NCBI RefSeq assembly: GCF_013201725.1 | Contig: NZ_CP053835.1 | Coordinates: 2,790,001 to 2,854,000 of the forward strand | Reading direction: 5' to 3' | DNA from: Arcobacter defluvii | Lineage (GTDB): Bacteria > Campylobacterota > Campylobacteria > Campylobacterales > Arcobacteraceae | Length of the DNA: 64,000 bases | Part shown: piece by piece, positions 38,163 through 58,919 of the stretch | How positions within the stretch are numbered: the first letter of the stretch is position 1 | Layout: each line of letters opens with the position of its first letter | Position numbers and translations under genes: made by a program | Notes under the pieces: generated by a model | What the model was told of the DNA's origin: nothing | The model's database searches: none | What the model saw: only the letters and a program-made list of their open reading frames with translations

Positions 38163-38189
38163 ATGTGTCATAATCAAAAAGGATTTATT

Positions 38190-41205: not shown

Positions 41206-42165
41206 ATGATAATAGTACATGCAAAAGGCAATAGCCAATTAGGAATAGGAAATCTTTCCAGATCATATGAATTAATAAAATATTTATCTATTACTAAAGA
41301 TGTTATTGGTATTTTTGAATGTGATGAGAATATTTTCAGAAGATATGATATAAATAATATCTATAGAGTAAATAATTTAAATGAAGCATTAGAATTAGTT
41401 ACAAAATATAAATCTTTTATTTATATTAGCGATTTAGTATCTCCAAAAAAAGAATTAAGTTCATTTTTAAAAGAAAATGGAGCTAAACAAATTTTACATT
41501 TTAATGGAATAAATTCTGGTTTTGAACCTGATATTCTATTTGTGACTGATGGTTTTGACTATGAATTCTTTGATAATCGATTTAAAATTTATCGAGGATT
41601 CGAATACTATATTGTTGGAAATGAAGTAATTAAAAATAGAAAAAAAAAACTAAAGCATATCAAATCTATAAAAAACATTCTAATTTGTTTTGGTGGAGCA
41701 GATCCTGCTTTTTTTACTGAATATTTTGCTAAAAATATAAATGATTTTAAATATAATTATAAGATTGTACTAGGTCCTGCTATGCCTAAAAATCGAAAAG
41801 AAAATATTTTAACTATAAAAAAAAACAATATAGAATACATAGATAGCCCAAAAAATATGATTGAATTACTTTTAAATAGTGATTTATTAATAACTCTTGG
41901 AGGAATGACTACATATGAAGCAATGTGCTTAGGAGTTCCTGCAAGTGCTGTGAGATGGAACTATTTAGAATATATTGTAAAAAGTTTTGGAGAAAAAAAT
42001 ATGATTACAGATTTAGGAAATATAGATGAAGCTTATGAAAACTTATTAAATTTAAATTTAGATAATGTAAATAAAGTTTGTAAAAATGCCTATAATATAA
42101 TCGATGGAAGTGCTTTAAAAAATATTGAAAAGGTTATTAATTCAATAAATGGAGAGAGTTTATGA
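41206..42165 (+). CDS. PseG-like UDP-sugar hydrolase homologue with substituted catalytic His
   Basis: 319 residues, longer than C. jejuni PseG (about 274). N-terminal nucleotide-sugar loop GIGNLSRSYEL aligns with the GFGHIKRD of PseG; C-terminal GT-B half has ICFGGADPAFFT and LLITLGGMTTYEAMCLG. PseG removes UDP from the diacetamido sugar before NeuB-type condensation. The residue aligned with PseG His17 is Asn16, so activity may be altered or the true substrate may differ. It overlaps the NeuB gene by 4 bp and heads a + strand operon to 46945. Confidence 0.75.
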   Translation: MIIVHAKGNSQLGIGNLSRSYELIKYLSITKDVIGIFECDENIFRRYDINNIYRVNNLNEALELVTKYKSFIYISDLVSPKKELSSFLKENGAKQILHFNGINSGFEPDILFVTDGFDYEFFDNRFKIYRGFEYYIVGNEVIKNRKKKLKHIKSIKNILICFGGADPAFFTEYFAKNINDFKYNYKIVLGPAMPKNRKENILTIKKNNIEYIDSPKNMIELLLNSDLLITLGGMTTYEAMCLGVPASAVRWNYLEYIVKSFGEKNMITDLGNIDEAYENLLNLNLDNVNKVCKNAYNIIDGSALKNIEKVINSINGESL

Positions 42166-43211
42166 TAAAAATTGGTAGTAAAATAATCTCAAATGATAGT
42201 CCTACATTTATAGTTGCAGAAGTTGGAGCAAATCATAATGGAGATTTAGAACTTGCAAAAAAAAGTATAGATGCTGCAGTAGAGTGTGGGGTTGATGCAG
42301 TTAAATTTCAAACATATACAACAGAAGAATTATTGTCAAATGAAGATGACATTATAGGCTATGGTAAAGATGAAGAGAGTATCATAAGAGAACCTTTAAA
42401 AAATCTATTTGATAGAATATCTTTAAAAAGAGATTTTCACAAAGAGATCTTTAATTATGCAAAATCAAAAGGGCTTATTTGCTTCTCCACTCCATTTAGT
42501 ACACAAGGAGTTATCTTTTTAGAAGAAATTGATAATCCAATATACAAAATAGCTTCATCAGATGTAAATTATGTAGACATGATAGAGGTTATTGGAGCTA
42601 CAGAAAAACCAGTTTTTTTGTCTACAGGAAAATGTACGCTTTCAGAGATGGATATGGCTATTGAATTGTTACAAAAAAGTGGAACCACGGATTTGTGTCT
42701 ATTGCACTGTATTGCAAACTATCCATCTAAGATGGAAAATATGAATTTAAATGTGATAAAAACTTTAAAACAGATGTACCCAGAGTGTATCATAGGATTT
42801 TCAGACCATTCATTAGGTATTACTGCTTCTTTAGGAGCTGTATGTTTTGGAGCAAAAATTATAGAAAAACATTTTACCATCGATAAAAATTTAGATGGTC
42901 CAGATCACTGGTTTAGTATGGATCCAAACGATATGAAAAATCTTGTTACTGAAATAAGAAATTTAGAAGTAGCATTTGGAACTCAAAGAAAATTTTTATC
43001 CCAAAATGAAGTACCAGAAAAGCATTGGGCTACAAGATCTTTACATGTCAATAAAAATTTAAAGGTAGGAGATATTATAAATAAAGAAGATTTGGATATG
43101 TTAAGACCAGGATATGGAATATCTCCTTTTGACAAAGATAAAGTTATAGGAATGAAGCTAGAAAAAGATATACAAGAAGGGACTGTATTAGAATGGACTC
43201 ATTTCAAATAA
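42162..43211 (+). CDS. NeuB-family nonulosonate synthase
   Basis: 349 residues: TIM barrel (AEVGANHNGDLELAKK, VKFQTYTTEEL, KIASSDVN, GFSDHSLGITASLGAV, EKHFTIDKNLDGPDHWFSMDP) and a C-terminal antifreeze-like SAF domain (~residues 285-349, ATRSLHVNKNLKVGDII). It condenses a 6-deoxy diacetamido hexose with phosphoenolpyruvate. The GPDH segment resembles the NeuB/LegI branch more than PseI, so the product might be pseudaminic, legionaminic or a related acid. Coupled to the PseG-like gene by a 4-bp overlap. Confidence 0.85.
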   Translation: MIKIGSKIISNDSPTFIVAEVGANHNGDLELAKKSIDAAVECGVDAVKFQTYTTEELLSNEDDIIGYGKDEESIIREPLKNLFDRISLKRDFHKEIFNYAKSKGLICFSTPFSTQGVIFLEEIDNPIYKIASSDVNYVDMIEVIGATEKPVFLSTGKCTLSEMDMAIELLQKSGTTDLCLLHCIANYPSKMENMNLNVIKTLKQMYPECIIGFSDHSLGITASLGAVCFGAKIIEKHFTIDKNLDGPDHWFSMDPNDMKNLVTEIRNLEVAFGTQRKFLSQNEVPEKHWATRSLHVNKNLKVGDIINKEDLDMLRPGYGISPFDKDKVIGMKLEKDIQEGTVLEWTHFK

Positions 43212-43220
43212 AGGGTAAAA

Positions 43221-44597
43221 TTGGAACTTATAGTTTGTAATAATAATGAAATAGGTATAAATAGCTATATTCTTAAAGTTGATAATAGAGTAGTAGTTAT
43301 TGATCCTAATGACTATGAAGAAATTGTTCATACTATTGGTGAGTGTAGTTTAGATTATATTCTTTTAACTCATGAGCATTTTGATCATATAATGGCAGTT
43401 GATAAATTAAGAGATACGTATAAGGCTAAAGTGATTGCACAGAAATTTGCGAGTGAACATATACAGTTCGCATCAAAAAATTTATCAAAATTTTCTAATA
43501 TCATATTGGATTTTATGAATAAGACTATTAGTTCTCCCATCAAAGAATTTGTAGTTAAAGAAGCAGATATTACATATGAAGATTTTTATGAGTTAAGTTG
43601 GGAAGGATATGATTTTTTATTTACCCATACACCAGGTCATACAAAAGGAAGTTCTTGTATATTAGTAAATAATTGTTTGTTTAGTGGTGATTCTCTTTTT
43701 GAATGTTGCGAGACTGATACAAAAGGAGTTGGAACTAGCAGAAAAGAATATGAACAAATAACTATATCTTTTTTTAAATCACTTGAAAATACTATAACTG
43801 TATATGCTGGACACTATCATAGTTTTATTTTGGAAGATAAATTAAAAGCAAGAGAAAAAGCTATTCAAATTTTTAAAAGTAGACCAAAATATACAAATTT
43901 ATTTTTAAATTATAATGATTTTTTGAACATTCTAGATAATTCTAATTTTTTTGTCAGAAATGATAGTATTTTTATAATGAAGAAGTATTCTGGTTTTTAC
44001 AAGTTTTATTACTTTGTAAATGATTATAAAAATTTAAATAATTTAAATGATTTTTTTGGTTTATATAAACAACCTGTTATTATTGAAATAATTTCATGTA
44101 GAGAAATAGATGAAGGTATTTATACAAAAATTGGATTTAAACCTTATAAAATTTATTCAAGATATAGAACAGACAAGAAAAATAAAAATTTTGATATAGT
44201 AAAAATAGCAAATATAGAAGATATGGAAGATATATCAACATTAATTAATGAAACTTTTGATCCTTTAGGTGATTATATTCCAAGTAATGATGAACTTATT
44301 GAGTTAATTTTAAAAAAAGAAGTTTTTATTATAAAAGTTGATAATAAGTTAGCAGGTGTATCAATTTATGAAAAAAGACATAAAAATTATTACTTTAGAT
44401 TATCTTGTGTTCATCCTAATCATAGACCAGGATTAATAGGTTATATGTTGGCTTCAACTTCTCCAAAGGATGGAAATATCTATTCTGCTTGGGTTGATGA
44501 TAAAAATTTAGAAGCCATAAAGCTAAATACTTTATTAGGTTATAAAATAGATGGAACTAAAAACTATATTTTTATTAAAAATAAGGAAACAATATGA
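43221..44597 (+). CDS. Metallo-beta-lactamase-fold hydrolase fused to GNAT-like domain
   Basis: 458 residues from a TTG start (AAGGG five bases upstream). N-terminal MBL fold (~1-215) with complete metal ligands: HEHFDH (51-56), HTPGH140, SGD157, and GHYH (198-200), glyoxalase II-like thioesterase arrangement. C-terminal part (~225-458) looks like an acyltransferase of GNAT type ending VHPNHRPGLIGYMLAST and LNTLLGYKIDG. The C-terminal half is homologous to the separate gene at 55106-55930. Fusion with neighbouring ACP suggests hydrolysis and transfer of an acyl thioester. It precedes the ACP by an overlap of 4 bp. Confidence 0.8.
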   Translation: MELIVCNNNEIGINSYILKVDNRVVVIDPNDYEEIVHTIGECSLDYILLTHEHFDHIMAVDKLRDTYKAKVIAQKFASEHIQFASKNLSKFSNIILDFMNKTISSPIKEFVVKEADITYEDFYELSWEGYDFLFTHTPGHTKGSSCILVNNCLFSGDSLFECCETDTKGVGTSRKEYEQITISFFKSLENTITVYAGHYHSFILEDKLKAREKAIQIFKSRPKYTNLFLNYNDFLNILDNSNFFVRNDSIFIMKKYSGFYKFYYFVNDYKNLNNLNDFFGLYKQPVIIEIISCREIDEGIYTKIGFKPYKIYSRYRTDKKNKNFDIVKIANIEDMEDISTLINETFDPLGDYIPSNDELIELILKKEVFIIKVDNKLAGVSIYEKRHKNYYFRLSCVHPNHRPGLIGYMLASTSPKDGNIYSAWVDDKNLEAIKLNTLLGYKIDGTKNYIFIKNKETI

Positions 44598-44887
44598 GTT
44601 TAGAAAAAATTGAGAATATAATAATAGAATCTTTAAAAGAATATAATCAATCGTTAGGAAGTAGTGAATTAAAGAATTGTACAGCACAAACAAGACTTTA
44701 TGGTGAAAAAAGTGTTTTAGACAGTATAGGTTTGGTTTATTTAATAACAGATATTGAAGAAAAAATATCAGATAAATTTTCAAAAAATATAGTATTAGCA
44801 GATGAGAAAGCGATGAGCCAAAGAACTTCACCTTTTAGAGATGTAGAGACTTTAGCAAAATACATTCAAAATCTTTTAGAAGAATGA
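44594..44887 (+). CDS. Acyl carrier protein 1
   Basis: 97 residues, slightly longer than a typical ACP. The phosphopantetheine attachment Ser lies in LDSIGLVYLITDIEEKI, followed by an acidic helix and a C-terminal helix (VETLAKYIQNLLEE). It is sandwiched between the MBL/GNAT fusion (4-bp overlap) and an SDR, so it likely carries the acyl group for those enzymes. It differs strongly from the other two carrier proteins in this island. Confidence 0.88.
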   Translation: MSLEKIENIIIESLKEYNQSLGSSELKNCTAQTRLYGEKSVLDSIGLVYLITDIEEKISDKFSKNIVLADEKAMSQRTSPFRDVETLAKYIQNLLEE

Positions 44888-44888
44888 T

Positions 44889-45590
44889 ATGAATAAAGTT
44901 GTAGTTATAACTGGTACAAGTAAAGGTATAGGTAAATTTTTAGTTCAATATTATTTATTAAAAAACTATATTGTAATTGGTTGTAGTAGAACAAAAAGTT
45001 CAATTAATGATAAAAACTATAGACATTTTGATTTAGATGTTTGTGATGAAAAAGCTATTGTTGAGATGATTAGAAGCATAAAAAAAGAGTTCGGGAAAAT
45101 TGATATTCTGTTAAATAATGCTGGAATTGCTTCTATGAATCATTTTATAACAACATCATATCAAAGTGTACAAAATATTTTTGCTACAAATTTTTTTGGT
45201 ACTTTTCTTTTTACAAGAGAAGTTTCAAAAGTAATGATGAAACAAAAATTTGGAAGAATAGTAAACTATACAACAGTTGCAAAACCTCTAAGACTTGAAG
45301 GTGAGGCAATTTATGCTGCAAGTAAAGCTGCTATTGAAAACTTTACTCAAACTATAGCTAAAGAAGTTGCTTCATATGGAATTACTGTAAATGCAATAGG
45401 TCCAACACCAATACAAACAGATTTAATAAAGGCTATTCCAAAAGAAAAAATAGCAGAGCTTTTAAATAAACAAGCTATAAAAAGGTTTGGAACTTTTGAA
45501 GATATAATAAATGCTATTGAATTTTTTTGTGATGAAAAAAGTGATTTTATAACGGGGCAAATAATATATTTAGGCGGAGTAAATAATTGA
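44889..45590 (+). CDS. FabG-like short-chain dehydrogenase/reductase
   Basis: 233 residues. NAD(P)-binding TGTSKGIGK (~8-16), LLNNAGIA, catalytic YAASK motif, and a C-terminal FITGQIIYLGG. A Thr occupies the usual catalytic Ser region (NYTTVAKP). It probably reduces a beta-keto acyl-ACP, or oxidises a hydroxyacyl group, on the neighbouring ACP. Its stop overlaps the TTG start of the ligase gene by four bases. An ordinary biosynthetic FabG copy is expected elsewhere, so this is a dedicated enzyme. Confidence 0.88.
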   Translation: MNKVVVITGTSKGIGKFLVQYYLLKNYIVIGCSRTKSSINDKNYRHFDLDVCDEKAIVEMIRSIKKEFGKIDILLNNAGIASMNHFITTSYQSVQNIFATNFFGTFLFTREVSKVMMKQKFGRIVNYTTVAKPLRLEGEAIYAASKAAIENFTQTIAKEVASYGITVNAIGPTPIQTDLIKAIPKEKIAELLNKQAIKRFGTFEDIINAIEFFCDEKSDFITGQIIYLGGVNN

Positions 45591-46945
45591 TAAATTGGAT
45601 TTTTGATAATTTTAAAATATTTGGAAATAAAATAGCTATAAACTATAAAAATAGAAGTTATACATATTTGCAACTTTTTTTACAAATTAAAAAAATAGAA
45701 AAAGAGATAATCTCAAATGTTGCTAAAAATGAAGTTATAGCAATAATTGGAGATTATTCTTTTGAATCCATAGCCGTACTTTTTGCTTTATCTAAAAATA
45801 GAAATATTATTGTACCAATTACATCTGTAGCAGAAAATGAGATAAAAGATAAAATTGAAGAGTCTTTTTGTGATAAGATAATAAGAATCGTTGATGAAAA
45901 ATATGTTGTTGAAAATAATATTCCAAAAGAAAAGCATCAGATTATAAAAGATCTTCAAGAAAAAAACAGTTCTGGACTTATATTATTTTCAAGTGGAAGT
46001 ACAGCTAAGCCAAAAGCTATGATACATGACTTTGATATCTTATTAAACTCTTACAAAAATAAAAAAAAGAAATCTCTTAATATGATTGTATTCCTAATGT
46101 TTGACCATATTGGAGGATTAAATACTTTATTAAATATTCTTTCAATTGGTTCTACTATGATAATTCCAGAAAATAGAAATCCTGATGATATTTGTAAATT
46201 AATTCAAGATTATAAAATTACAGTTTTACCCTCTAGTCCAACTTTTTTAAATCTTATTTTAATGAATAATTCACATAATAAATATGATTTAAGTAGTTTA
46301 AAAATGATTACTTATGGCACAGAAACTATGCCAGATAGTCTATTAATTAGATTAAAAAATAGTTTTCCTAAAGTAAAGTTTCTACAAACATTTGGCACAA
46401 GTGAAACAGGAATTGCAAATACAAAATCAAAATCTTCAAACTCTACTTTTATGAAAATAGAAAATCTAGATTTAGAGTATAAAATAGTAGAAAATGAGCT
46501 TTGGCTAAAAAGTAAAACTCAAATTTTAGGATATTTAAACTCATCAATGGATAGTTTTACTAAAGATGGTTGGTTTAAGACTGGTGATTTAGTAGAAACT
46601 TTAGATGATGGTTACATAAAAATAATTGGAAGAAATAAAGAAGTTATAAATGTAGGTGGGCAAAAAGTTTTACCAAGTGAAGTTGAGTCTGTTATTTTAT
46701 ATATGAAAGAGATTGAAGATTGTATAGTTTATGGAGAAAAAAATTTAATTACAGGACAAACAGTGATTTGTGATGTTGTATTAAAAGAAGATATATCAAA
46801 TATAAAAGTTTTGATTAGAAAATTTTGTAAAGATAAACTAGATAATTACAAAATACCTACAAAAGTTAATATTGTAGATAAAATAAATTTTACAGATAGA
46901 TTTAAAAAAATAAGAGGAAGTATTAAAAAATCTGTGTCAATCTGA
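45587..46945 (+). CDS. AMP-forming acyl/aryl ligase
   Basis: 452 residues from a TTG (GGCGGAG upstream, overlapping the SDR stop). ANL-superfamily motifs: ILFSSGSTAKPKA (A3), QTFGTSETG (A5), WFKTGDLVETLDDGYIKIIGRNKEVINVGGQKVLPSEVE (A7-A8), and a C-terminal RFKKIRG Lys (A10). It would adenylate a carboxylic acid and load it as a thioester on a carrier protein. The A8 hinge INVGGQKV is like acyl-CoA synthetases rather than NRPS domains. Last intact gene of the operon from 41206. Confidence 0.88.
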   Translation: MINWIFDNFKIFGNKIAINYKNRSYTYLQLFLQIKKIEKEIISNVAKNEVIAIIGDYSFESIAVLFALSKNRNIIVPITSVAENEIKDKIEESFCDKIIRIVDEKYVVENNIPKEKHQIIKDLQEKNSSGLILFSSGSTAKPKAMIHDFDILLNSYKNKKKKSLNMIVFLMFDHIGGLNTLLNILSIGSTMIIPENRNPDDICKLIQDYKITVLPSSPTFLNLILMNNSHNKYDLSSLKMITYGTETMPDSLLIRLKNSFPKVKFLQTFGTSETGIANTKSKSSNSTFMKIENLDLEYKIVENELWLKSKTQILGYLNSSMDSFTKDGWFKTGDLVETLDDGYIKIIGRNKEVINVGGQKVLPSEVESVILYMKEIEDCIVYGEKNLITGQTVICDVVLKEDISNIKVLIRKFCKDKLDNYKIPTKVNIVDKINFTDRFKKIRGSIKKSVSI

Positions 46946-47309: not shown

Positions 47310-48566
47310 TTACTTTGGAATAGCATAGATAATAGTCTCTTCTTGAGTACACTCATAATGTCGCATTATTAATCTGTATTCAGGTAACCACTGTTTTAAT
47401 AAAAGAGGTATATTCCATAAATCATCAAATTTATGATAAATTGAGATTGCTAATTTAGGTTTATATTTTATAATATTATTTATTCCGCCTAATAGAGCTT
47501 GAATTTCAAAAGTTTGTATATCCATTTTTATAAAAGTTGGAATATGATTTATTGTTTCATCTATTGAGACAACTTCAGTTTTTCTATTTGTAACTTCATT
47601 CGTACAAGATACTCCAACTCCTTCTCCATGAAGATAAAAAGTTTTATTCTTATAGTAAGTTCCAGCATTAATTATTGTAATTTTATCTTTTTGTTCTAAC
47701 GTATCTACATATCTTTTTAACTCTTCAAAAGTATTTTTTTCAGGTTCATAACTATATATATGTTTAAATTTTTCATTTGTAACTTTTAAAAAAGATGCTA
47801 TTGTATCACCAGTATAAGCACCACAATCAATAAAAACTTCATCTTCACAAAGAGTTAAAACTTCTTTATCAAAATATTGTAATGAAGTATCATCTTTAAC
47901 TAAAATTGGGTAAAAATAGTCTTCAGTCAATTTAAATTTTAAAATAGCAGCAAAAACCTCTTTTGACTTTTTATCTTCTAATAAATTGTATAGAGTTATG
48001 ATATTTACTATTTCAGAAGCAGTAAATTTATGGTTTAATTTATTTAAATCATATTCATCAAAGCCTTTTTGTTTTTTTTCTATAAGATTTAATGATAGAA
48101 GGTTTTTTGCCAAACTTCTCATACAATACATATGTTTAAATCCACTTCTATAAAAAGTATGAGTAAGATATGCGTAAGAATCTGTATTAAGAAAAATTAC
48201 AACATCATCAGGGTTTTCATAAAATTCTTCTTTACTTATTAATTTTACTTTATCTCTATATTTATAGTATTTTTCTAAATCTAAGTATTTATAATCTAAA
48301 CTATTTGAAAATACTCCACTTTTAGTTTTTATCTCTTCTTCTACCCAATCATAAGCTCCATAAACATCAACACCAAAATTTAGTTTAAAATATTTTACTA
48401 TTGATTTTAAATAGTATCCCGTTCCAAAAAAAATAAACTTTTTTGTTTTACATAACTGTTTAAATCTTTCAAGTTTCTCTTCTTCGAATTTATGGTCAAA
48501 TTTTTCATTTTGTGTATCAAATAGAACTTCAATTATCTCATTAAAATTTTTATCAATATTTAACAT
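47310..48566 (-). CDS. FkbM-family methyltransferase 1
   Basis: 418 residues. An N-terminal ~200-residue region with a Rossmann-like start (KKFIFFGTGYYLKSIVKYF, ~residues 38-57) precedes a C-terminal FkbM SAM-methyltransferase (~230-415): DEVFIDCGAYTGDTIASFLK, IYSYEPEK, THIPTFIKMDIQTFEIQALLGG. Substrate unknown; O-methylation of a sugar or acyl hydroxyl is likely. It is a close paralogue of 50109-51353, both flanking an adenylation enzyme in one minus-strand unit. Such duplicates may methylate two different positions. Confidence 0.85.
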   Translation of the reverse strand: MLNIDKNFNEIIEVLFDTQNEKFDHKFEEEKLERFKQLCKTKKFIFFGTGYYLKSIVKYFKLNFGVDVYGAYDWVEEEIKTKSGVFSNSLDYKYLDLEKYYKYRDKVKLISKEEFYENPDDVVIFLNTDSYAYLTHTFYRSGFKHMYCMRSLAKNLLSLNLIEKKQKGFDEYDLNKLNHKFTASEIVNIITLYNLLEDKKSKEVFAAILKFKLTEDYFYPILVKDDTSLQYFDKEVLTLCEDEVFIDCGAYTGDTIASFLKVTNEKFKHIYSYEPEKNTFEELKRYVDTLEQKDKITIINAGTYYKNKTFYLHGEGVGVSCTNEVTNRKTEVVSIDETINHIPTFIKMDIQTFEIQALLGGINNIIKYKPKLAISIYHKFDDLWNIPLLLKQWLPEYRLIMRHYECTQEETIIYAIPK

Positions 48567-48576
48567 CTAATTCCTT

Positions 48577-50088
48577 TTAAACTAAAAATTCTTTTAATCT
48601 ATTCCTATCAATTTTACCATTTATATTTAAAGGCATTGCCTCAAGTAAAATAAATTTTGTAGGAAGCATATATTTTGGTAATTTACTATGAAGTTCTAAT
48701 AATATGTCTCTTTGAGTATTTTTCATTGTAGACTCATAAATCAAAACTATATTTTTATTTTCATTATCATATAAAACACAAGCATTATCAACTCCATTTA
48801 TAGCCAAAATTGCTGTTTCAATCTCACCTAACTCTATTCTATATCCCATATGTTTTATCTGAAAATCTTTTCTTCCTTTATAGATTAATTCACCTTTTTC
48901 ATTGTAGTAAACAATATCTCCCGTTCTATAAATCTTCTCTGGATAAGCTTTATTTAATGGATTTTGAGTAAATGTAAGAGCAGTTTTTTCTGGATCATTA
49001 TAATATCCAAGTGCTAAAGAGCTACCTCTTACACAAAGTTCTCCTATTTTATTTGCTTCTATTATAAGCTTATCTTCTTGGTCAAGAACTAAGATATCTG
49101 TATTTTTACAAGCAAAACCAATAGGAAGTGGTTCATCATCTTTAAAATCTCTATTCACTATAAAATATGTACAATCAACTGTAATTTCAGTAGGTCCATA
49201 TAAGTTTACAAATAGTGCATTTGGAATATAATTTTTCCAATAATTCATTATTTTTGTTGGCATTACTTCACCTGCAAAACTTACAAATCTTAATTCTAAA
49301 TTTCTATTTTTTAATAAATCTAAAGTAACAATATTGGCCATAATAGAAGGAACCCAAAAAATAAAATTAATTGACTCTTTTTCAAGATAATCAACTAATT
49401 TCACAGGAAACATAAATAGATTTTCTGGAATTAAATTCAAAGTAGCTCCAGTCGATAACATTAAATAGATATCAAGAACAGAGTTATCAAAAATAAATGG
49501 AGCTTGATTTCCAATTTTAAAACTACTATCTATTTTAAAAGTATCAATAGCCCAATCTATATAATCTATTATAGATTTATGAGAAACAACTACACCTTTA
49601 GGTGTGCCAGTTGAACCTGAAGTATTAATTATATACGCAGGATTTGTATCTATTGATAAATTATAATTTGTAAAATTAAACCCTACTTCATTTTCAATTT
49701 CAATATTATCCAATAAAATTATTTCTATATTAAGATTTAAATCTTTTAGTAATTTTGCACTATTTATATTTGTAATAACATATTTTATTTCTAATTTTTT
49801 TATAATGGCTTCAACTCTTGAAATAGGATTTTTTATATCTAAAGGTACATAGAAATCTCCATTATAAACTATTCCTAAAAATGATTTAATTGCTTCAATA
49901 GATTTTGGTAAAAATACACCAATTGGTAAATTTCGATCTATATTCTTTAATTGTAAATATGAAGCAATATTTTTAGATTGTTTTTGTAAACATTTAAAAG
50001 ATATATTACCTTTTTCATCAATTATTGCTGTTTTATTTGGGTATGTTTTTACTGTATTTTCTAAATACTCCAAGATATTTGTTTTCAT
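48577..50088 (-). CDS. Amino-acid-adenylating enzyme (DltA/NRPS A-domain type)
   Basis: 503 residues, a free-standing A domain. NTSGSTGTPKGVVVSH (A3), FDNSVLDIYLMLSTG (A4, with the Asp that usually binds the amino group), NLYGPTEITVDC (A5), YRTGDIVYYNEKGELIYKGRKDFQIKHMGYRIELGEIE (A7-A8), and NGKIDRNRL with the A10 Lys. It should activate an amino acid and load it onto a carrier protein. It sits between the two FkbM genes (10- and 20-bp gaps). C. jejuni Cj1307 is a described analogue in a flagellar locus. Confidence 0.9.
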   Translation of the reverse strand: MKTNILEYLENTVKTYPNKTAIIDEKGNISFKCLQKQSKNIASYLQLKNIDRNLPIGVFLPKSIEAIKSFLGIVYNGDFYVPLDIKNPISRVEAIIKKLEIKYVITNINSAKLLKDLNLNIEIILLDNIEIENEVGFNFTNYNLSIDTNPAYIINTSGSTGTPKGVVVSHKSIIDYIDWAIDTFKIDSSFKIGNQAPFIFDNSVLDIYLMLSTGATLNLIPENLFMFPVKLVDYLEKESINFIFWVPSIMANIVTLDLLKNRNLELRFVSFAGEVMPTKIMNYWKNYIPNALFVNLYGPTEITVDCTYFIVNRDFKDDEPLPIGFACKNTDILVLDQEDKLIIEANKIGELCVRGSSLALGYYNDPEKTALTFTQNPLNKAYPEKIYRTGDIVYYNEKGELIYKGRKDFQIKHMGYRIELGEIETAILAINGVDNACVLYDNENKNIVLIYESTMKNTQRDILLELHSKLPKYMLPTKFILLEAMPLNINGKIDRNRLKEFLV

Positions 50089-50108
50089 ATATTTCCTTTT
50101 AAATTATC

Positions 50109-51353
50109 TCATCTTGGAATAGCATATATAACTGTCTCCTCTTGAGTAGAGCCATAATGTCTCATTTTAAATTTATAATCAGGTAACCACTGTTTTAATA
50201 AAAGTGGAATATTCCATAAATCATCAAATTTATGATAAATACATATTGCTAATTTTGGTTTATGCTCTTTTATATTTTTTATTGCTCCTAAAAGAGCTTG
50301 AATTTCAAAAGATTCTATATCCATTTTTATAAAAGTTGGAATATGATTTATTGATTCATCAATAGAGATAACTTCTGCTTTTTTATCTGTTATGGTTTCT
50401 GTACATGTTGTAGCCGAGCTTTGTCCACTTAAATAAAAAGTTTTATTTTTATAATAAACTCCTGCTTTAATTGTTGTAATTTTATCTTTAGATTCTAATG
50501 AAGAAATATAATCATTTAATTTTTTAAAATTAACCTCTTCAGGCTCATAACTATAAATATGTTTAAATTTACCATTTGTAAATTTTAGAAAAGACGCTAT
50601 AGTATCTCCATTATAACCACCACAATCAATGAAAACTTCGTCATCACTTATATTTATAACTTCTTTATCAAAATATTGCGATGATGCTTTATCTTTTGTA
50701 GAAATAGTGTAAAAATAGTCTTCAGTTAATTTGAATTTTAATATATCCATAAAAACATTTTTAGATTTTTCATCTTCTAATAAATTATATAAAGTTATAA
50801 TATTCGCTATTTCTGAAGTAGTAAATGAGTAATTTAATCTATTTAATTCAAATTCATCAAATTTTTGTTTTGTAAGAATTTCTATTGGCAAAAAATTTTT
50901 TAACAAATTTCTTATTGTATAGATATTTTTAAATCCTAAACTATAAAGAGCCATTGGAAGAGAAGGATAAATATCTGTATTTATAAATATTACAATATCT
51001 TCTGACTTTTCATAAAACTCCTCTTTTGATATTAATTTTACTTTATCTCTATATTTATAGTATTTTTCTAAATCTAGATATTGATAATCTGCAATATTTG
51101 CAAATTTACCTTCTTGTGTTTTCACCTCTTCTACCCAATCATAAACTCCATAAACATCAACATCAAAATTTAGTTTAAAATATTTTACTATTGATTTTAA
51201 ATAATATCCTGTTCCAAAAACAACTAGTTTTTTTGTTTTACATAAGTTTTTAAATCGCTCAATCTTCTCTTTTTCGTATAAATTATCAAATTGATTATTT
51301 TGTGTATCAAATAAAACTTCAATCAAATTATTAAAATGTTCATTCCCAAACAT
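50109..51353 (-). CDS. FkbM-family methyltransferase 2
   Basis: 414 residues, same architecture as the other FkbM protein: N-terminal GTGYYLKSIVKYFKLNF region, C-terminal SAM domain with DEVFIDCGGYNGDTIASF, IYSYEPEE and THIPTFIKMDIESFEIQALLGA. Identity to the paralogue is high by eye (well over half), lower in the middle. It is the first gene of the minus-strand unit, directly beside the IS110 insertion; its upstream promoter may have been altered by that element. Confidence 0.85.
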   Translation of the reverse strand: MFGNEHFNNLIEVLFDTQNNQFDNLYEKEKIERFKNLCKTKKLVVFGTGYYLKSIVKYFKLNFDVDVYGVYDWVEEVKTQEGKFANIADYQYLDLEKYYKYRDKVKLISKEEFYEKSEDIVIFINTDIYPSLPMALYSLGFKNIYTIRNLLKNFLPIEILTKQKFDEFELNRLNYSFTTSEIANIITLYNLLEDEKSKNVFMDILKFKLTEDYFYTISTKDKASSQYFDKEVINISDDEVFIDCGGYNGDTIASFLKFTNGKFKHIYSYEPEEVNFKKLNDYISSLESKDKITTIKAGVYYKNKTFYLSGQSSATTCTETITDKKAEVISIDESINHIPTFIKMDIESFEIQALLGAIKNIKEHKPKLAICIYHKFDDLWNIPLLLKQWLPDYKFKMRHYGSTQEETVIYAIPR

Positions 51354-51423
51354 AAATTACTCCTCGTATAATTAATTTTATGAATATATCATCTAGTTTT
51401 TAACTAAAAAATATATTCTTCTA

Positions 51424-51694
51424 AGATTGAAGTACTAACTTCAAATCTTTTACTTTTTACAGTCTATGACTTTAGATATAACAACATTTTTCTCCTTGTA
51501 GCAATGATGAATTAAATTAATATTTCTTCTAACCAAACTACATCATTTAAGCCTGTTGATATCTTTAGTTGTTAATCATTTATTAAAAGCTGTAGAGGTA
51601 GCTGTATAGCACTTACTACTTATAGATTAACGAGGCTGTGAATCTAGCTTAGGCTAGAACAACTAAAGATTATTATAAACTGAGGTATAAAAAG
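51424..51694. ncRNA. Candidate bridge-RNA region upstream of the IS110 recombinase
   Basis: Seen: a 7-bp hairpin TTGAAGT/ACTTCAA near 51427-51444; a perfect 13-bp long-range pairing ATCTTTAGTTGTT (51561-51573) with AACAACTAAAGAT (51658-51670); within it, GCTGTA/TATAGC (51589-51594, 51605-51610, 10-nt loop) and TAGATT/AATCTA (51623-51628, 51641-51646, 12-nt loop), with a competing CTAGC/GCTAG stem. Established: IS110-group elements encode a bridge RNA in the left non-coding end with two internal loops. Inference: this is that RNA. Confidence 0.55.
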
Positions 51695-52924
51695 ATGTAT
51701 TATGTTGGAATTGATATTGCTAAAAATTTTCATGTTGTTACTATCATTGATGATAGTGAGAAAAAAATTACTACTAAACCTATAAGGGTTACAAATTGTA
51801 TTGATGGATTTTCAAAGTTTATTGTTAAACTTGAAGCTATCTCATCAAATCCAAACGATTTTATAATTGGTCTTGAAGCAACTGGAATTTATGGTGAAAA
51901 TCTTTTAGAGTTTTTAAATGCTCATGGGTTTAATGTTAAACTATTAAATCCATTTCAAACAACCAGATATAGAGAACAACACACAATGAAAAAAGTAAAA
52001 AATGACAATATTGATTCTTGGATTATTGCACTCTTCCTAAAAGATGGCAAATTTAGTTCAGGTTATGTAACTGATGATGAATATCAAAGTTTAAGAACTT
52101 TGTATCGTAATCGTGCTTCTATTCAATCAGATATGAAAGAGGTAAAAAAACGAATTATTACTCAAGTAACAGTTACATTTCCCGAACTTGAAAATTTTAT
52201 TGATATATTTAGTATCACAGGACTTGCACTTTTGGATAAATATCCAACTGCACATCATTATAAACATAGTAGTGTTGATAGAATACTTAAGATATTTAGA
52301 CATATTCAAGGAAATAGCTTTAATAGTGAAAAAGCCCTAAAAGTTTTAGAACTTGCAAAAAATTCTATCTATTCTGGTAAAGCCAAAGATGCAAGAGCCA
52401 TAGCTATTAAAAGTTCTATTAGACTTCTTAAAATCTATCAAGATGAGTTATCTATTTTAGAAGATGAAATATTAGCTTTACTTGAAAACAATGGTATTAA
52501 AGAAGAAAAAGATGTTCCAACTAATTCATTGATTGAGAACTTAAAAACTATTCCAGGTGTTTCATCTAAAACTATTGCTGCAGTTATTAGTGAATGTGGT
52601 GATTTATCAAGATTTACAACACCTATTAAATTTATAGGGTATCTTGGACTATTTCCAACAGAAAATAGTTCAGGTAATTCTAAATCAACAGGTCATTTAA
52701 GTCGTAGAGGTTCATCACTAGCAAAACATGCTCTTTATATGGCAAGTGTAAGTTGTATGATACACAATAAAGAGCTCAAGCAATATTATGATACTAAAAA
52801 ATCTCAAGGAAAATCTAAACAAGAAGGACTTATTGCTGTTTCAAGAAAACTAGCAACTATTATCTATTCCATTTTTAGATACAACACCCCTTATGATCCA
52901 GCTCGTGTTTTTTCTAAGTCATAA
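51695..52924 (+). CDS. IS110-family DEDD transposase/recombinase
   Basis: 409 residues, full length. RuvC-like DEDD domain at the N-terminus: GIDIAK with D7, LEATGIYGENL with E61, KNDNIDSWIIA with D104 and D107. C-terminal Transposase_20 domain with IPGVSSKTIAAVISECGD, FIGYLGLFPTENSSGNS (catalytic Ser region) and HLSRRGSSLAKHALYMAS. RBS GAGG upstream. No frameshifts or stops, so the element may be active. Two structured flanks are described separately. Confidence 0.95.
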   Translation: MYYVGIDIAKNFHVVTIIDDSEKKITTKPIRVTNCIDGFSKFIVKLEAISSNPNDFIIGLEATGIYGENLLEFLNAHGFNVKLLNPFQTTRYREQHTMKKVKNDNIDSWIIALFLKDGKFSSGYVTDDEYQSLRTLYRNRASIQSDMKEVKKRIITQVTVTFPELENFIDIFSITGLALLDKYPTAHHYKHSSVDRILKIFRHIQGNSFNSEKALKVLELAKNSIYSGKAKDARAIAIKSSIRLLKIYQDELSILEDEILALLENNGIKEEKDVPTNSLIENLKTIPGVSSKTIAAVISECGDLSRFTTPIKFIGYLGLFPTENSSGNSKSTGHLSRRGSSLAKHALYMASVSCMIHNKELKQYYDTKKSQGKSKQEGLIAVSRKLATIIYSIFRYNTPYDPARVFSKS

Positions 52925-52967
52925 ACAGTAAATTATAAAAGATCACAAGTTAGTACTAAAATCTAAA

Positions 52968-53115
52968 GATAGCATTCAAAAAAGCTATCACTATACTAAT
53001 TGCCAACCAAACATTTAAACTTGTTTGATCATAGAAACACTACTAGCAAAATTCTAGATAATTGCATAAAAATAGTGCTTCCAAAATCAAACATCAGCAA
53101 GTTTTTTAAACTTGC
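52968..53115. other. Structured 3' flank of the IS110 element
   Basis: GATAGC/GCTATC (52968-52973, 52984-52989); AAACTTG-TTTGAT (53017-53029) pairing with ATCAAA...CAAGTTT (53086-53104, 6-nt bulge); inside that CACTA/TAGTG (53038-53042, 53073-53077) and CTAG/CTAG (53043-53046, 53054-53057); then GCAAGTTT/AAACTTGC (53097-53104, 53108-53115). The remaining sequence to 53276 is AT-rich with no gene seen. Confidence 0.5.
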
Positions 53116-53276
53116 AATGTTCTTAAAAAATACATTGTTAAAAAACTATTGTCTTTTTAAAATTTTCCTTTAATTTAAGTTATTCTTTATAAAAAGGCTT
53201 ACAATTATTCTTTGTAGGATTGTAATATATTTTATATTATTTTGATATAATTAATTAAAAAATATTGGGGATTATA

Positions 53277-53495
53277 ATGAATTTAGAACATAAAATAGAA
53301 CTTTTAGCAGATTTATTTGAATTAGAAGTAACAGATTTTACTCCAGAAACTTTATTAGATGATTTAGAAGAGTGGGATTCTTTAGCTGCTATTTCCTATG
53401 TTGTTATGATGGATGAAGAATTTGGTGTAGTTGCTAATCCGAATGATATAAAAAACTTTAGAACTGTTCAAGATATATTAGATAGTATGAAATAA
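53277..53495 (+). CDS. Acyl carrier protein 2
   Basis: 72 residues from ATG 53277 (GGGG six bases upstream; an ATG 12 bases earlier lacks spacing). The attachment Ser is in EEWDSLAAISYVVMMDEEFGV, with a W-D-S-L motif usual for ACPs dedicated to secondary pathways. It starts an operon that runs to the KASIII gene at 57010. It would carry the substrate for the following SDR. Confidence 0.88.
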   Translation: MNLEHKIELLADLFELEVTDFTPETLLDDLEEWDSLAAISYVVMMDEEFGVVANPNDIKNFRTVQDILDSMK

Positions 53496-53508: not shown

Positions 53509-54246
53509 ATGTTTAATTTAGTAAATAAAAAAATATTGATTATGGGAGCAACTGGTTATATTGGTAAGCAAGTTGCACTTACTTTAGACAGTTTGGGAGC
53601 TAAATTAATACTTAGTGGGAAAAATGAAGCTATTTTAAATGAAATATTATTTGAGTTAAAAGGTAATGGACATTATCTTTTGCCATTTGATGTAGAAAAT
53701 ATAGATGATATTTCAAATTTTATGAAAAAAATTGTTGCGATAGATGGAAATAAATTATTTGGACTAGTTTACTGTACTGGTATTTTTCCAATAAGACCTT
53801 TAAAAAATACAAAAATAGATTTTTTACATAATTTAATGCTAATAAATTTTTACTCTTTTATCGAAATTGTTCGTTGTTTTAGTGATAAAAGAATTTGTGA
53901 AGAAAAAGCAAGTATAGTATCTTTATCCTCTATAGCTTCTATAAACGGAGAAAAAGGACAGTTAGCATACAGTGCAAGCAAGGGAGCTATGGATAGTAGT
54001 ATAAAAGTTTTAGCAAAAGAACTTAGTTCAAAAAATATTAAAATAAATTCTATAAGACCAGCTGCTTTACTACCAGAAGATATACTTTTTGATAACTTAC
54101 CAGAGGCTATACAAGATACAATAAATCGAATGCAAACAGGACCGATATCAAACAAAAGTATTGCTACACAAATTGCTTTTCTTTTAAGTGAATACTCAAA
54201 TAATATTACAGGACAATGCTTTGATGTAAGAGGTTGTTTAATATGA
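53509..54246 (+). CDS. Short-chain dehydrogenase/reductase (complete active site)
   Basis: 245 residues. Gly-rich GATGYIGKQ (~13-21), VYCTGIF in place of NNAG, catalytic Ser (SLSSIAS), YSASK, and a C-terminal NITGQCFDVRG. Position between two ACP genes suggests reduction of a keto-acyl thioester. It ends in a TGA that overlaps the start of the pseudo-SDR gene. No signal peptide; cytoplasmic. Confidence 0.87.
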   Translation: MFNLVNKKILIMGATGYIGKQVALTLDSLGAKLILSGKNEAILNEILFELKGNGHYLLPFDVENIDDISNFMKKIVAIDGNKLFGLVYCTGIFPIRPLKNTKIDFLHNLMLINFYSFIEIVRCFSDKRICEEKASIVSLSSIASINGEKGQLAYSASKGAMDSSIKVLAKELSSKNIKINSIRPAALLPEDILFDNLPEAIQDTINRMQTGPISNKSIATQIAFLLSEYSNNITGQCFDVRGCLI

Positions 54247-54851
54247 TATCTTTTAAAAATAAGAAAGTTTTAATTATAGGAAATAATTTAGGTTTTGAAA
54301 AAGATATAGCTATTAAATTAAATAATTTAGGAGCTAATATTTTACTGATAAATGAAAATGAAAGCTTAGCAAAAGAGATTTTATCTCTACTTCAAGGAGA
54401 TAATAATAAATATTTGAATTTTACAAATATTAAAGATATAGAAAATTCAGTTGAAAATACTGATATTTATATACATTTTGCAGATGAACAAATTGATAAT
54501 TTATACCTAATTGATCATAATAAACTTCAAAATATATTTAATAAAAATGTTACTTCATATATAAACTTTATTAAAGCTATATCTTCAAAAAAACAAAATA
54601 TAAATAATTTATCTGTTTTATATATATCATCAAATTCAAATCAAATATCTGCTTTAAATATGTCAAAAACTTTATCTTTAGAGCTTTTTGAACAAAATAT
54701 AAGAGTAAATAGCCTAGCTATTGACAATAAATATAAATATGATTTTAATGAAAATAGTAATGAATTGATGCAAAGGATTTCTTCTATGGCAAGTTATATA
54801 GTGAGTGAATATGCTAAATTTATAGTAGGAGAAATTTATAAAATAAATTGA
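54243..54851 (+). CDS. SDR-fold protein without catalytic Tyr
   Basis: 202 residues from ATG 54243, which overlaps the preceding TGA (ATGA) behind AGAGG; a slightly earlier ATG at 54234 is less likely. It keeps the Rossmann outline (VLIIGNNLGFEKDIAIKLNN, LSVLYISSNSNQISALNMSKTLSLELF, IRVNSLAI) but the Gly pattern is eroded and the YxxxK Tyr is missing (N-M-S-K follows A-L). It may be a non-catalytic partner of the upstream SDR. High AT and Asn/Lys content suggests drift; a decaying gene is possible. Confidence 0.75.
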   Translation: MISFKNKKVLIIGNNLGFEKDIAIKLNNLGANILLINENESLAKEILSLLQGDNNKYLNFTNIKDIENSVENTDIYIHFADEQIDNLYLIDHNKLQNIFNKNVTSYINFIKAISSKKQNINNLSVLYISSNSNQISALNMSKTLSLELFEQNIRVNSLAIDNKYKYDFNENSNELMQRISSMASYIVSEYAKFIVGEIYKIN

Positions 54852-54872: not shown

Positions 54873-55103
54873 ATGGAAAAAATAAGAGGAATATTGATTG
54901 ATATTAGACCAGAATATGATTTTTTAGAAGATATAGATTTTATTGAAGCAGGTATGCTTGATAGTTTTGATATTATAACTTTAGTAACTGATTTGGAAGA
55001 GAATTTTGATATTAGAATAGATGGAAGCGATATATTGCCAGAAAATTTTTGTAGTATAAAAGCTATAGAAAATCTTATAGAAAAAAGTGGTGGAGTCTTA
55101 TAA
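54873..55103 (+). CDS. Acyl carrier protein 3
   Basis: 76 residues behind AAGGAGA. The attachment Ser is in MLDSFDIITLVTDLEENFDI; helices flank it as in ACPs. The N-terminal IRGILIDIRPEYDF is unlike the other two. It lies 21 bp after the pseudo-SDR and just before the GNAT-like protein, which could be its transferase partner. Confidence 0.88.
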   Translation: MEKIRGILIDIRPEYDFLEDIDFIEAGMLDSFDIITLVTDLEENFDIRIDGSDILPENFCSIKAIENLIEKSGGVL

Positions 55104-55105
55104 TC

Positions 55106-55930
55106 ATGATGGATAATAATGAGACTATAAAGATTAAGGATATTATTTCATCAAGGAATAAAAAAACAAATTGTTTTTCATTTTTTAATGAAATTTGTGA
55201 TTGGATAGAAGATAGTAAAGCAGATTTTTATTTAATAAATACTTGTGTTTTTGTATTTTACAAAGCAAATAAATTTTATAAATTTTATTACTATGTTGAT
55301 AATTTAGAAGATATAATATTTGCTAAAGATTTATTAAGGGAATACTCTTTATCTAATAAAGTAGTTTTAGAATTTACTACAAAAAATGATAAAGGATTAA
55401 GTCAGATATCAAATACTTTACTTGAAATAGGTTTTGAAATTTATTCTGAATTAGTAAGGCTTATTCAAGGTAAAATTATATTTAAAGAAGATAAAGAAGA
55501 TAAAGAACAATATGAGCTAGCAACTTTAGATAATAAAGATCAACTTTTAGATATTATGCACAAAGAATTTGATATTTTAAAAGATGATATACCTACAGAA
55601 GAAGAGTTATTAAAGCTTATTTCCAATAAATCTATTGTTATCAAAACCTTAGATAATCAAATAATTTTAATACAGATTTATGAATATTTAAAAGGTGCTT
55701 TATATTCAAGAATGACTTGGATAAAAAAAGAGTATAGAAAGCCAAAATACACTATAGATATACACAAATCAATTGATAGCTATTTACAAGACTTAAATAT
55801 AGAAAATTTTAAGAATTTCAAATCTTATGGTTGGATTGATAAATCAAATAGAAACTTAAAAGTAAATTTAAAAATGGGTGCAGTTCTAGATGGAATAACT
55901 TGTACAATATTTTTATATAAAAATAATTAG
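55106..55930 (+). CDS. GNAT-like protein paralogous to the fusion's C-terminal half
   Basis: 274 residues. FYKFYYYVDNLEDI, IGFEIYSELVRLI, DIPTEEELLKLI and MTWIKKEYRKP line up with the C-terminal ~235 residues of the MBL fusion at 43221-44597 (FYKFYYFVNDYKNL, IGFKPYKIYSRYR, YIPSNDELIELI). A weak GNAT acetyltransferase fold with an N-terminal extension is likely; the acetyl-CoA-binding R/Q-x-x-G loop is not clear. It may accept acyl-ACP rather than acyl-CoA. Family assignment is tentative. Confidence 0.7.
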   Translation: MMDNNETIKIKDIISSRNKKTNCFSFFNEICDWIEDSKADFYLINTCVFVFYKANKFYKFYYYVDNLEDIIFAKDLLREYSLSNKVVLEFTTKNDKGLSQISNTLLEIGFEIYSELVRLIQGKIIFKEDKEDKEQYELATLDNKDQLLDIMHKEFDILKDDIPTEEELLKLISNKSIVIKTLDNQIILIQIYEYLKGALYSRMTWIKKEYRKPKYTIDIHKSIDSYLQDLNIENFKNFKSYGWIDKSNRNLKVNLKMGAVLDGITCTIFLYKNN

Positions 55931-55939
55931 GAGTAAATC

Positions 55940-57010
55940 ATGAAAACAACATTTTATGGTAAAAAAATATCTGGTATAGTTACTTTGTTACCTGAAACTG
56001 AATATACATTTGAAGATGATATGAAATATAATAACTTATCAGAAAAGCAGAATAGAAAGCTTCAAAAAACTATGGGTTACGATAGACATAGATTTTTTAA
56101 GCCTGATACATATCTTTCAAAAGTAGCAATTTATGGTTTAAAATTAATGTTTGAAAAAAAACTTTTAATTAAAGATGATATATCTGCAATAGTTGTTTCG
56201 ACTTCTACCCCAGACTATTTAATGCCAGCAACTTCTAATTTAATAATGAGTGAATTGGATTTGGATAATAGTGTTTTTTGTATGGATACAAACCAACAAT
56301 GTGCAGGTTTTGTAAATGGTTTATTACAAGCTTTTATGCTTTTAAATAATGATAATATGAAAAAAGTAGTTTTAATAACTGGTGATGTGATGGTTAGAAA
56401 TCCTGATAGAAGTAATACAAGTGGATACCCACTTTCAGGGGATGCTATTTGTATAACGATAGTAGAAAATTGTGATAAAAAACTTCCTATTTACTATCAT
56501 TCAATTGTTGATGCAAAATCTTATGATGCTTTAGTTTTTCCTGGCTTAGGATTTAGGGAAATAACGCCAGAAGATAAAATTAGATTTAGTAGTGAAAAAT
56601 ATAGTTTTAATAATAACTTAAATAGTATTCATATGGACGGTCAAGCTGTTTTTCAATATGTTATGCAAGATGTACCAAAATATATCAATGAAACTTTAGA
56701 ATTAGCTCAAACCAACAAAGATGATTTAGACTACTACTTTTTTCATCAACCAAATAAATTTATGGTAGATAAATTAGCGCAAAAAATTGAAGTCTCTGAA
56801 AATAAAGTTCCAAGTAATGTGGTTACCTTTTATGGAAATTCTAGTAGTTCTACAATTCCAGTTTGTATTTGTCATAATGTAAAAGATACAATTTTAAAAA
56901 ATAATTATAGATCTATGTTAGCTGGATTTGGTGCTGGATTATCTTATTCTGGAATAGTTATGAACTTAGGAGAATTTGATTTTTGTGAAATGATAGTAAC
57001 AAATTTCTAA
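55940..57010 (+). CDS. KASIII-like 3-oxoacyl-ACP synthase
   Basis: 356 residues. Complete FabH triad: Cys121 in NQQCAGF, His269 in FHQPN, Asn300 in YGNSSSS. N-terminal VVVSTSTPDYLMPATSN and C-terminal SMLAGFGAGLSYSG are typical. It is a dedicated copy that should condense an acyl starter with malonyl-ACP or transfer an acyl group between carriers; C. jejuni has FabH2 in its flagellar locus. Last gene of the ACP2/ACP3 operon. Confidence 0.9.
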   Translation: MKTTFYGKKISGIVTLLPETEYTFEDDMKYNNLSEKQNRKLQKTMGYDRHRFFKPDTYLSKVAIYGLKLMFEKKLLIKDDISAIVVSTSTPDYLMPATSNLIMSELDLDNSVFCMDTNQQCAGFVNGLLQAFMLLNNDNMKKVVLITGDVMVRNPDRSNTSGYPLSGDAICITIVENCDKKLPIYYHSIVDAKSYDALVFPGLGFREITPEDKIRFSSEKYSFNNNLNSIHMDGQAVFQYVMQDVPKYINETLELAQTNKDDLDYYFFHQPNKFMVDKLAQKIEVSENKVPSNVVTFYGNSSSSTIPVCICHNVKDTILKNNYRSMLAGFGAGLSYSGIVMNLGEFDFCEMIVTNF

Positions 57011-57650: not shown

Positions 57651-58208
57651 CTATATTTGACAATCTTTTATATCATAAAGCTTGTCAAATAAAATTCTTG
57701 ATTTAGAGTTAATGATGCTTTCATCATAAAAATTATCTACTACAACTCTTATCTCATTAAAGTCACTATTTTCACATCTGATAATTTCAATAGTTTTAAC
57801 ACCTCCTAATCTATTTCCCCTTGTATTATCTATAAGTTGCTTAGACTTTAAATATTTTATGTTCAATATAGTTGATATATAACTAATACAAATTCTATTT
57901 ACTATTCCTCCCCCTTCAAATTTATACTCTTCTTTTACTAAATAATCTCCAATATAATAAGTATCATCTGTAATCTTTTTTAAACTAATAACCCCATAAT
58001 CTTTTTCATTGATTGTAATTAGAAAAGAGAAATATTTATCTGCATTTTTTAATAATTCAAAATAATTTTTATGTTCTTCTTTACTTATAATATTCTTGTT
58101 AACAGATATTTTTCTAATAAATTCTTGATTTCTATACTCTAAGATTTGATTATATTTATCTTCATTTAAATATATAAAATTGATTATTCTTAATTCTCTT
58201 TTTTTCAT
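57651..58208 (-). CDS. pseH: PseH-like UDP-4-amino-sugar N-acetyltransferase
   Basis: 185 residues. GNAT fold with the PseH signatures: LRIINFIYLNEDKYNQILEYRNQEFIRK, YGVISLKKITDDTYYIGDYL, EGGGIVNRICISYI. PseH acetylates C4-NH2 of the amino-altrose from PseC. An acyl group other than acetyl could be used, given the ACP genes nearby. It is the last gene of pseB-pseC-AlbA-pseF-pseH, 6 bp after pseF. Confidence 0.88.
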   Translation of the reverse strand: MKKRELRIINFIYLNEDKYNQILEYRNQEFIRKISVNKNIISKEEHKNYFELLKNADKYFSFLITINEKDYGVISLKKITDDTYYIGDYLVKEEYKFEGGGIVNRICISYISTILNIKYLKSKQLIDNTRGNRLGGVKTIEIIRCENSDFNEIRVVVDNFYDESIINSKSRILFDKLYDIKDCQI

Positions 58209-58214
58209 AATATA

Positions 58215-58919
58215 CTACTTGCTTCCTGATTTTAAAATAGCTTCATACATATATTCAGCTCTTACCCAATCTTCAAATGTATCTATGTCCTGTACCAAGT
58301 ATCGTGGTAATATTATAGGTACAGAATCTTTTCCAAAAATAATCTCATCTGATTTGATATTTAAATTCGTCCAATAAAACTGCCCAGCATCTTGATAAGC
58401 TTCTTCTAGGTCTTGACTACGTTTCATAAAATTTTCAGGCCAAAACATTTCACATCTTTCATCTTGCGTGATTTTAAAAGTTCTTTGAATTGGAAATGGC
58501 ATAGATGTACCTGAAAAAGCACTTTTTGCATTTGATTTTTTTAGTTTTTCAAAACCTTCAATCAAATATTTTTCATCTAAAAAAGGTGCTGTTGCATAAA
58601 TAGTACAAATAAAATCGTAGTCTTCACCAACACTTTTTAAATACTCTAAAGCATGATTTACAACTGCACCTGTTCCTGTAAAGTCATCACTCAACTTTTT
58701 AGGACGTAAAAAAGGTACAGTTGCACCATATTTTTTTGAAATTTGTGCAATTTCTTCATCATCGGTTGAAACAATAACTTTATCAAAAAGATTTGATTTT
58801 AAAGCAACTTCTATGCTGTAAGCTATCAAAGGTTTTCCAAAAAAATCTTTTATATTTTTTCTAGGAATTCTTTTACTTCCACCTCTTGCTGGAATTATTG
58901 CAACACAACTATTTTGCAA
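58215..58919 (-). CDS. pseF: Pseudaminic acid cytidylyltransferase PseF
   Basis: 234 residues. IIPARGGSKRIPRKNIKDFFGKP is the CMP-sugar synthetase signature; VIVSTDDEEIAQ and LDEKYLIEGFEKL match PseF. It activates the nonulosonic acid as CMP-sugar for Maf. It overlaps the AlbA_2 gene by 11 bp, unusual for a core pathway gene and suggesting tight coupling. Confidence 0.93.
   Translation of the reverse strand: MQNSCVAIIPARGGSKRIPRKNIKDFFGKPLIAYSIEVALKSNLFDKVIVSTDDEEIAQISKKYGATVPFLRPKKLSDDFTGTGAVVNHALEYLKSVGEDYDFICTIYATAPFLDEKYLIEGFEKLKKSNAKSAFSGTSMPFPIQRTFKITQDERCEMFWPENFMKRSQDLEEAYQDAGQFYWTNLNIKSDEIIFGKDSVPIILPRYLVQDIDTFEDWVRAEYMYEAILKSGSK

Follow-up and report, generated by a model that had tools for sequence, protein, structure and literature searches.

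Genes for an acyl carrier protein (ACP), a 3-oxoacyl-ACP reductase, and an AMP-dependent synthetase form a known set in the flagellin glycosylation islands of Aeromonas (PMC7874193). The Aeromonas group II and enterobacterial islands share the ACP, 3-oxoacyl-ACP reductase, and AMP synthetase/ligase genes with the locus analysed here, but neither an MBL protein nor an MBL-GNAT fusion is mentioned in those reports (PMC7874193, PMC4875605). In such islands carrier-protein genes recur without a worked-out function. The flagellin of C. jejuni carries pseudaminic acid substituted with N-acetylglutamine and di-O-methylglyceroyl groups (PMC3068675). Among described proteins, PqsE is an MBL thioesterase of an acyl pathway, encoded within an acyl biosynthetic operon, as we propose for the fusion reported below, although it acts on a CoA thioester and has no GNAT (PMC12077149). 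In MadA (YiiD) a GNAT is fused to a domain acting on ACP thioesters, again as proposed for the fusion, but the partner is a hot-dog domain rather than an MBL, the domain order is opposite, and the enzyme is a decarboxylase (PMC8666670).

The window, by which we mean the whole 64,000-nucleotide stretch analysed, comes from an Arcobacteraceae genome and contains a flagellin glycosylation locus of the pseudaminic type (features are on the forward strand unless stated otherwise). In particular, the locus comprises a gene for a PseG-like protein with a GIGN motif (41206–42165), a NeuB/PseI nonulosonic-acid synthase gene (42162–43211), and, directly after it, the MBL-tandem GNAT fusion gene (43221–44597), followed by genes for an atypical acyl-carrier-like protein with a DS motif, ACP(a) (44594–44887), an SDR resembling 3-oxoacyl-ACP reductase (44889–45590), and an AMP-forming acyl ligase (45587–46945). 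Further downstream are a DltA-like amino-acid adenylation gene lying between two FkbM methyltransferase genes (48577–50088, reverse strand), ACP(b) (53265–53495; PP-binding match, E 5.3e-7), SDR(b) (53509–54246), the DltC-like ACP(c) (54873–55103), a stand-alone tandem-GNAT gene (55106–55930), a beta-ketoacyl-ACP synthase III (KAS III) gene (55940–57010), and a separate gene for a PseH-like GNAT N-acetyltransferase (57651–58208, reverse strand). A flagellin gene at 38163 and CMP-sugar-synthetase-, PseC-, and PseB-like genes, all recognised from sequence, lie in the same window.

The initial annotation had placed both the fusion and the stand-alone GNAT-like protein next to an ACP gene, and the gene boundaries bear this out: the ATG of ACP(a) at 44594 overlaps the stop codon of the fusion, and ACP(c) ends 2 bases before the start of the stand-alone gene at 55106. 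ACP(c) scores above the Pfam ACP cut-off. ACP(a) gives no Pfam ACP match; every homologue keeps its DS attachment motif, and comparison of its family profile with an ACP profile gives a match at 86.6% probability and an E of 4.5e-6. The ACP(a) family, which mostly escapes the Pfam PP-binding model, also has an unusual conserved C-terminal stretch, A.EKAMS..SPF.

The open reading frame at 43221–44597 is a genuine fusion of 458 aa with both halves under purifying selection. Specifically, its TTG start lies 5 bases behind a probable ribosome-binding site, AAAGGG (43210–43215), that is kept upstream of homologues; a 79%-identical homologue likewise starts at TTG behind AAAGGG, a 58%-identical homologue uses GTG as its start codon, and against the 79%-identical homologue the dN/dS is 0.17 in the MBL half and 0.19 in the GNAT half. 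The shared TTG, a Pfam MBL match, and a GNAT-fold model together uphold the earlier reading of this frame as an MBL and GNAT-like fusion starting at TTG. We found no description of an MBL-GNAT fusion in the open-access literature searched. In one other genome of the genus (L076) the fusion DNA is 99.85% identical over a comparison spanning 43221–45590, whereas the proteins of the flanking genes are only 84% (NeuB) and 70% (PseG-like) identical, a contrast suggesting that part of the locus was recently exchanged as a block.

The N-terminal half (residues 1–209; 43221–43847) is a glyoxalase-II-like MBL domain, as indicated by Pfam, ligands, and model matches. Residues 12–169 match Pfam Lactamase_B (PF00753) with an E of 6e-19 (69.2 bits against a cut-off of 22.7), and residues H51, H53, D55, H56, H140, D157, and H198, comprising the HxHxDH motif and the downstream His, Asp, and His, are invariant in 13 of 13 aligned sequences, in agreement with the initial claim that the metal ligands are complete. 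Structure comparison (VIA) of the fusion model (pLDDT 94.2), in rows that cover residues 1–241 only, gives a Z of 27.0 with BLEG-1 (2.1 Å over 200 residues), 26.0 with S. aureus GloB, and 25.9 with YcbL. The short glyoxalase-II-like MBLs (S. aureus GloB, 7l0b; YcbL, 2xf4; TTHA1623, 2zwr; BLEG-1, 7ev5) are 22–28% identical to the MBL half and share its fold over about 200 residues and its metal-ligand set. They differ in standing alone, whereas the MBL of the fusion is joined to a tandem GNAT, sits in an ACP locus, and falls below the cut-off of the GloB equivalog model (TIGR03413; 53.5 versus 200.8 bits). The nearest solved MBL structures include a GloB-type thioester hydrolase, about 25% identical; since enzymes with an MBL fold carry out many different reactions, the fold by itself does not make the domain a thioesterase. 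The genome has 5 MBL genes by one family search.

The C-terminal half comprises two GNAT-like lobes: a degenerate-looking first lobe (residues 210–317; 43848–44171), delimited by AlphaFold2 secondary structure and matches to tandem GNATs, and a second lobe (residues 325–455; 44193–44585). The half aligns with the 274-aa stand-alone protein at 27% identity over 263 columns (E 1e-19), and a tree places the two in one Arcobacteraceae clade (99/97), so that the proposal that they are paralogues holds. Pfam and NCBIfam scans of the two proteins themselves gave no GNAT match, and neither matched PseH (TIGR03585) at an E of 0.01; the GNAT assignment therefore comes from family profiles and predicted models. 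In particular, the family profile matches a solved GNAT, diamine acetyltransferase 2, with an E of 1.5e-6, and 10 of the 30 family members match Acetyltransf_1. The AlphaFold2 model of the paralogue (pLDDT 90.5, pTM 0.85) is a tandem GNAT that matches MshD with a Z of 15.7 (4.7 Å over 253), MAB_4324 with a Z of 15.4, and the nucleotide-sugar GNAT WecD (2fs5) with a Z of 13.2. In Foldseek the paralogue matches tandem GNATs with an E of 1.2e-9, and the fusion matches the tandem GNAT VipF with an E of 3.7e-12; since the structure-comparison rows of the fusion stop at residue 241, its C-terminal fold is called from Foldseek and from the model of the paralogue. The initial annotation had named a fold unrelated to GNAT, or two unrelated proteins, as outcomes that would overturn it, and the models and alignment revealed neither. 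The known tandem GNATs (MshD, 2c27; MAB_4324, 7q3a; VipF, 7wx7) have two GNAT lobes, as do the fusion and the paralogue; these proteins and WecD are only about 8–15% identical to the present ones, have no MBL partner in the solved structures, and differ at the P-loop and Tyr discussed below.

The family of the GNAT-like half was found in 32 of 397 Campylobacterota genomes. In the class to which Marinifilum belongs it was found in 2 of 295 genomes, and in that of a Eubacteriaceae record in 12 of 291. The loci examined, most of them identified purely by sequence, contain 30 full-length copies; each of these lies within 6 kb of an ACP, and for 26 of the 30 a DltA-like adenylation gene is also present. 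Most of these relatives have no MBL alongside. MBL and GNAT-like domains have been brought together repeatedly, as follows from fused, convergent, adjacent, and same-cassette cases in several groups, and each of the two is also found in the company of carrier proteins independently of the other. The fusion is found in four genomes of the family (the window, L076, L077, and L034) and, cut by a contig end, in a genome of another family (L117). In A. cryaerophilus (L035) the two domains are split into convergent genes whose ends overlap by 8 bases; in two Clostridia (L124 and L125) they are adjacent, co-directional, separate genes; and in Marinifilum (L129) they lie 3 kb apart in one cassette. 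The MBL frame of Marinifilum is broken near a T run (L038:8301-8311; poly-T in L129), reflecting either a sequencing error or a pseudogene. Three further loci (L118, L119, and L036) have the MBL with no GNAT-like gene found nearby; in the last of these, from Bacillota, the MBL is flanked by an ACP-like gene on one side and a gene for a LuxE-LuxC protein on the other. An MBL is adjacent in 2 of the 15 loci that were found by the GNAT profile alone. By rough arithmetic about 0.05 to 0.2 such cases would be expected, and because the two may share one origin the excess is suggestive only.

We consider it an even call that the fusion is a two-headed enzyme belonging to a carrier-protein module, one that supplies a pseudaminic-type flagellin sugar with acyl substituents other than acetyl, probably hydroxyacyl or aminoacyl groups. 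In such a module, the adenylation and ligase enzymes would load the ACPs, while chain extension and reduction would fall to KAS III and the SDRs. The GNAT-like part would bind the ACP-borne group, and might transfer it, N-acylate a carrier-bound amino acid, or only dock; the MBL part, like other glyoxalase-II-type thioesterases, would hydrolyse the thioester on the same ACP, either clearing a wrong acyl group or releasing the product. The fusion would thus hold both activities, or an editing activity and an ACP-docking partner, on one carrier. It is very likely that the joined enzyme acts on ACP-borne groups, with the GNAT part probably handling (amino)acyl-ACP and the MBL part as a putative thioesterase that clears or releases what the carrier bears. 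A DltA-like enzyme, an ACP, FkbM methyltransferases, and a GNAT could between them make substituents of the C. jejuni type. By tying a hydrolase and a GNAT-fold partner to named ACPs, the locus offers concrete enzymes and substrates with which to study the making, checking, and attachment of such groups.

The initial annotation had suggested a thioesterase-transferase pair acting on acyl-ACP. The domain make-up, the paralogy, the ACP neighbourhood, and the recurrent partnership of the domains support this in part; the tandem form of the GNAT half and the DltA-like partners of its relatives go beyond that annotation, and the residues of the second lobe speak against a simple transferase. The P-loop pattern Gln/Arg-x-x-Gly-x-Gly/Ala, common but not universal in GNATs, is absent from both copies in the window: the fusion has a non-canonical RPGLIG with Arg402, and the paralogue has RKPKYT. 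W424 and N429 are conserved, and the general-acid Tyr expected seven residues after the conserved Asn, a spacing seen in PseH as Asn131/Tyr138 (PMC4363471), is replaced in the fusion by Asn436, which follows Asn429. We regard it as unlikely, though a serious possibility, that the fused GNAT is catalytically dead and serves to dock the MBL thioesterase to the ACP, with the paralogue or the PseH-like enzyme performing transfer. The non-canonical P-loops, the replacement of a Tyr that many stand-alone GNAT-like relatives keep, and a first lobe that looks degenerate in both alignment and model suggest that transfer chemistry may be lost. Functional GNATs with atypical P-loops exist, however, and AAC(6')-Ii and AAC(6')-Iy use no Tyr as general acid (PMC4964394), so that the altered residues only lower the likelihood of activity. 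In addition, the dN/dS of 0.19 shows that the GNAT half is kept under constraint, the same residues are lost in the stand-alone paralogue, and a loop that contacts the pyrophosphate of CoA would presumably be unneeded with an ACP donor.

The sugar pathway offers a different partner for the MBL, which could act, for example, in a nucleotide-sugar hydrolase step for the PseG-like neighbour. A PseG-like gene with GIGN, a motif kept in 6 of 6 homologues of the 41206–42165 protein, is the first or second gene upstream of the MBL in 6 of 6 Campylobacterota loci compared, and nothing encoded in the genome scores above the PseG cut-off. In Campylobacterota the MBL also stays linked to the PseG-like gene at L118 and L131, two loci without a GNAT-like gene found nearby. 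If, as we presume, PseG has a catalytic His where the PseG-like protein has the Asn of GIGN, a sugar-side role becomes possible. A PDB search with the PseG-like protein or its profile, however, returned no solved PseG; moreover, a member of the MBL family is encoded next to an ACP in the LuxE-LuxC locus (L036), which has no recognised PseG-like gene, and others are found in the clostridial loci. We therefore consider a sugar-side role improbable. It is very unlikely that the MBL is simply a detoxification hydrolase of the ordinary glyoxalase II type, joined to the GNAT by chance and functionally unlinked: its nearest relatives by fold are indeed GloB, YcbL, and BLEG-1, but it lies far under the GloB cut-off, its pairing or close neighbourhood with a GNAT-like gene recurs in Bacillota and Bacteroidota, and both halves are under purifying selection. 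A role like that of MadA, with the GNAT-containing protein producing a starter acyl-ACP or decarboxylating it, is scarcely probable. Genes for KAS III and ACPs do lie nearby, and E. coli MadA, in which the GNAT is fused to a thioesterase-like hot-dog domain, acts on malonyl-ACP, yet the decarboxylase of MadA is the hot-dog domain and its GNAT is inactive by itself (PMC8666670). A Pfam scan gave no match to that hot-dog domain (PF09500) here.

Beyond the two-headed enzyme of a flagellin module, the carrier-protein company of the GNAT-like family invites a wider reading, which we hold tentatively and consider doubtful: the family would be an undescribed partner of DltA-like enzymes and ACPs, with the role of N-acylating carrier-bound amino acids or passing them on, and the MBL fusion would be a self-editing aminoacyl-ACP tailoring enzyme, the products being N-acyl-aminoacyl groups on flagellin nonulosonic acids and clostridial surface polymers. 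Our searches of open-licence papers gave no description of a cassette of adenylation domain, GNAT, and ACP. Three clostridial loci have DltA-like, GNAT-like, DltC-like ACP, and MBOAT genes in a row; the MBOAT matches DltB in the two that were scanned (L126 and L127) and was identified by the MBOAT Pfam model in L123. These Dlt-like operons, with the GNAT-like gene between the adenylation and ACP genes (L123:6733-10836, L126:6694-10863, and L127:7060-10985), may represent a D-alanylation variant with N-acylation. The window itself gave no MBOAT match among the cassette genes scanned, and hence does not classify as a Dlt-type operon. Four loci from another family of the same order (L069, L071, L074, and L079) have the GNAT-like, ACP(a), SDR(a), and ligase genes as in the window, without the MBL; in the 2 of these that were scanned, a formyltransferase-like gene precedes the GNAT-like gene. 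AAC(3)-like transferases occur in several related cassettes; a search of the present genome found none.

Compared with L076 and L077, the segment at 47310–53495 lacks a second KAS III gene and the AAC(3)-like gene, holds the FkbM-adenylation-FkbM block in the opposite orientation, and contains an IS110-type transposase gene, suggesting rearrangement. The frame at 54234–54851 encodes a short, weak SDR of 205 aa that falls just under the Pfam cut-off and is perhaps degenerate. Between the CMP-sugar-synthetase-like and PseC-like genes, a 447-aa open reading frame (58909–60252) resembles, by eye, an AlbA-type putative DNA-binding protein.
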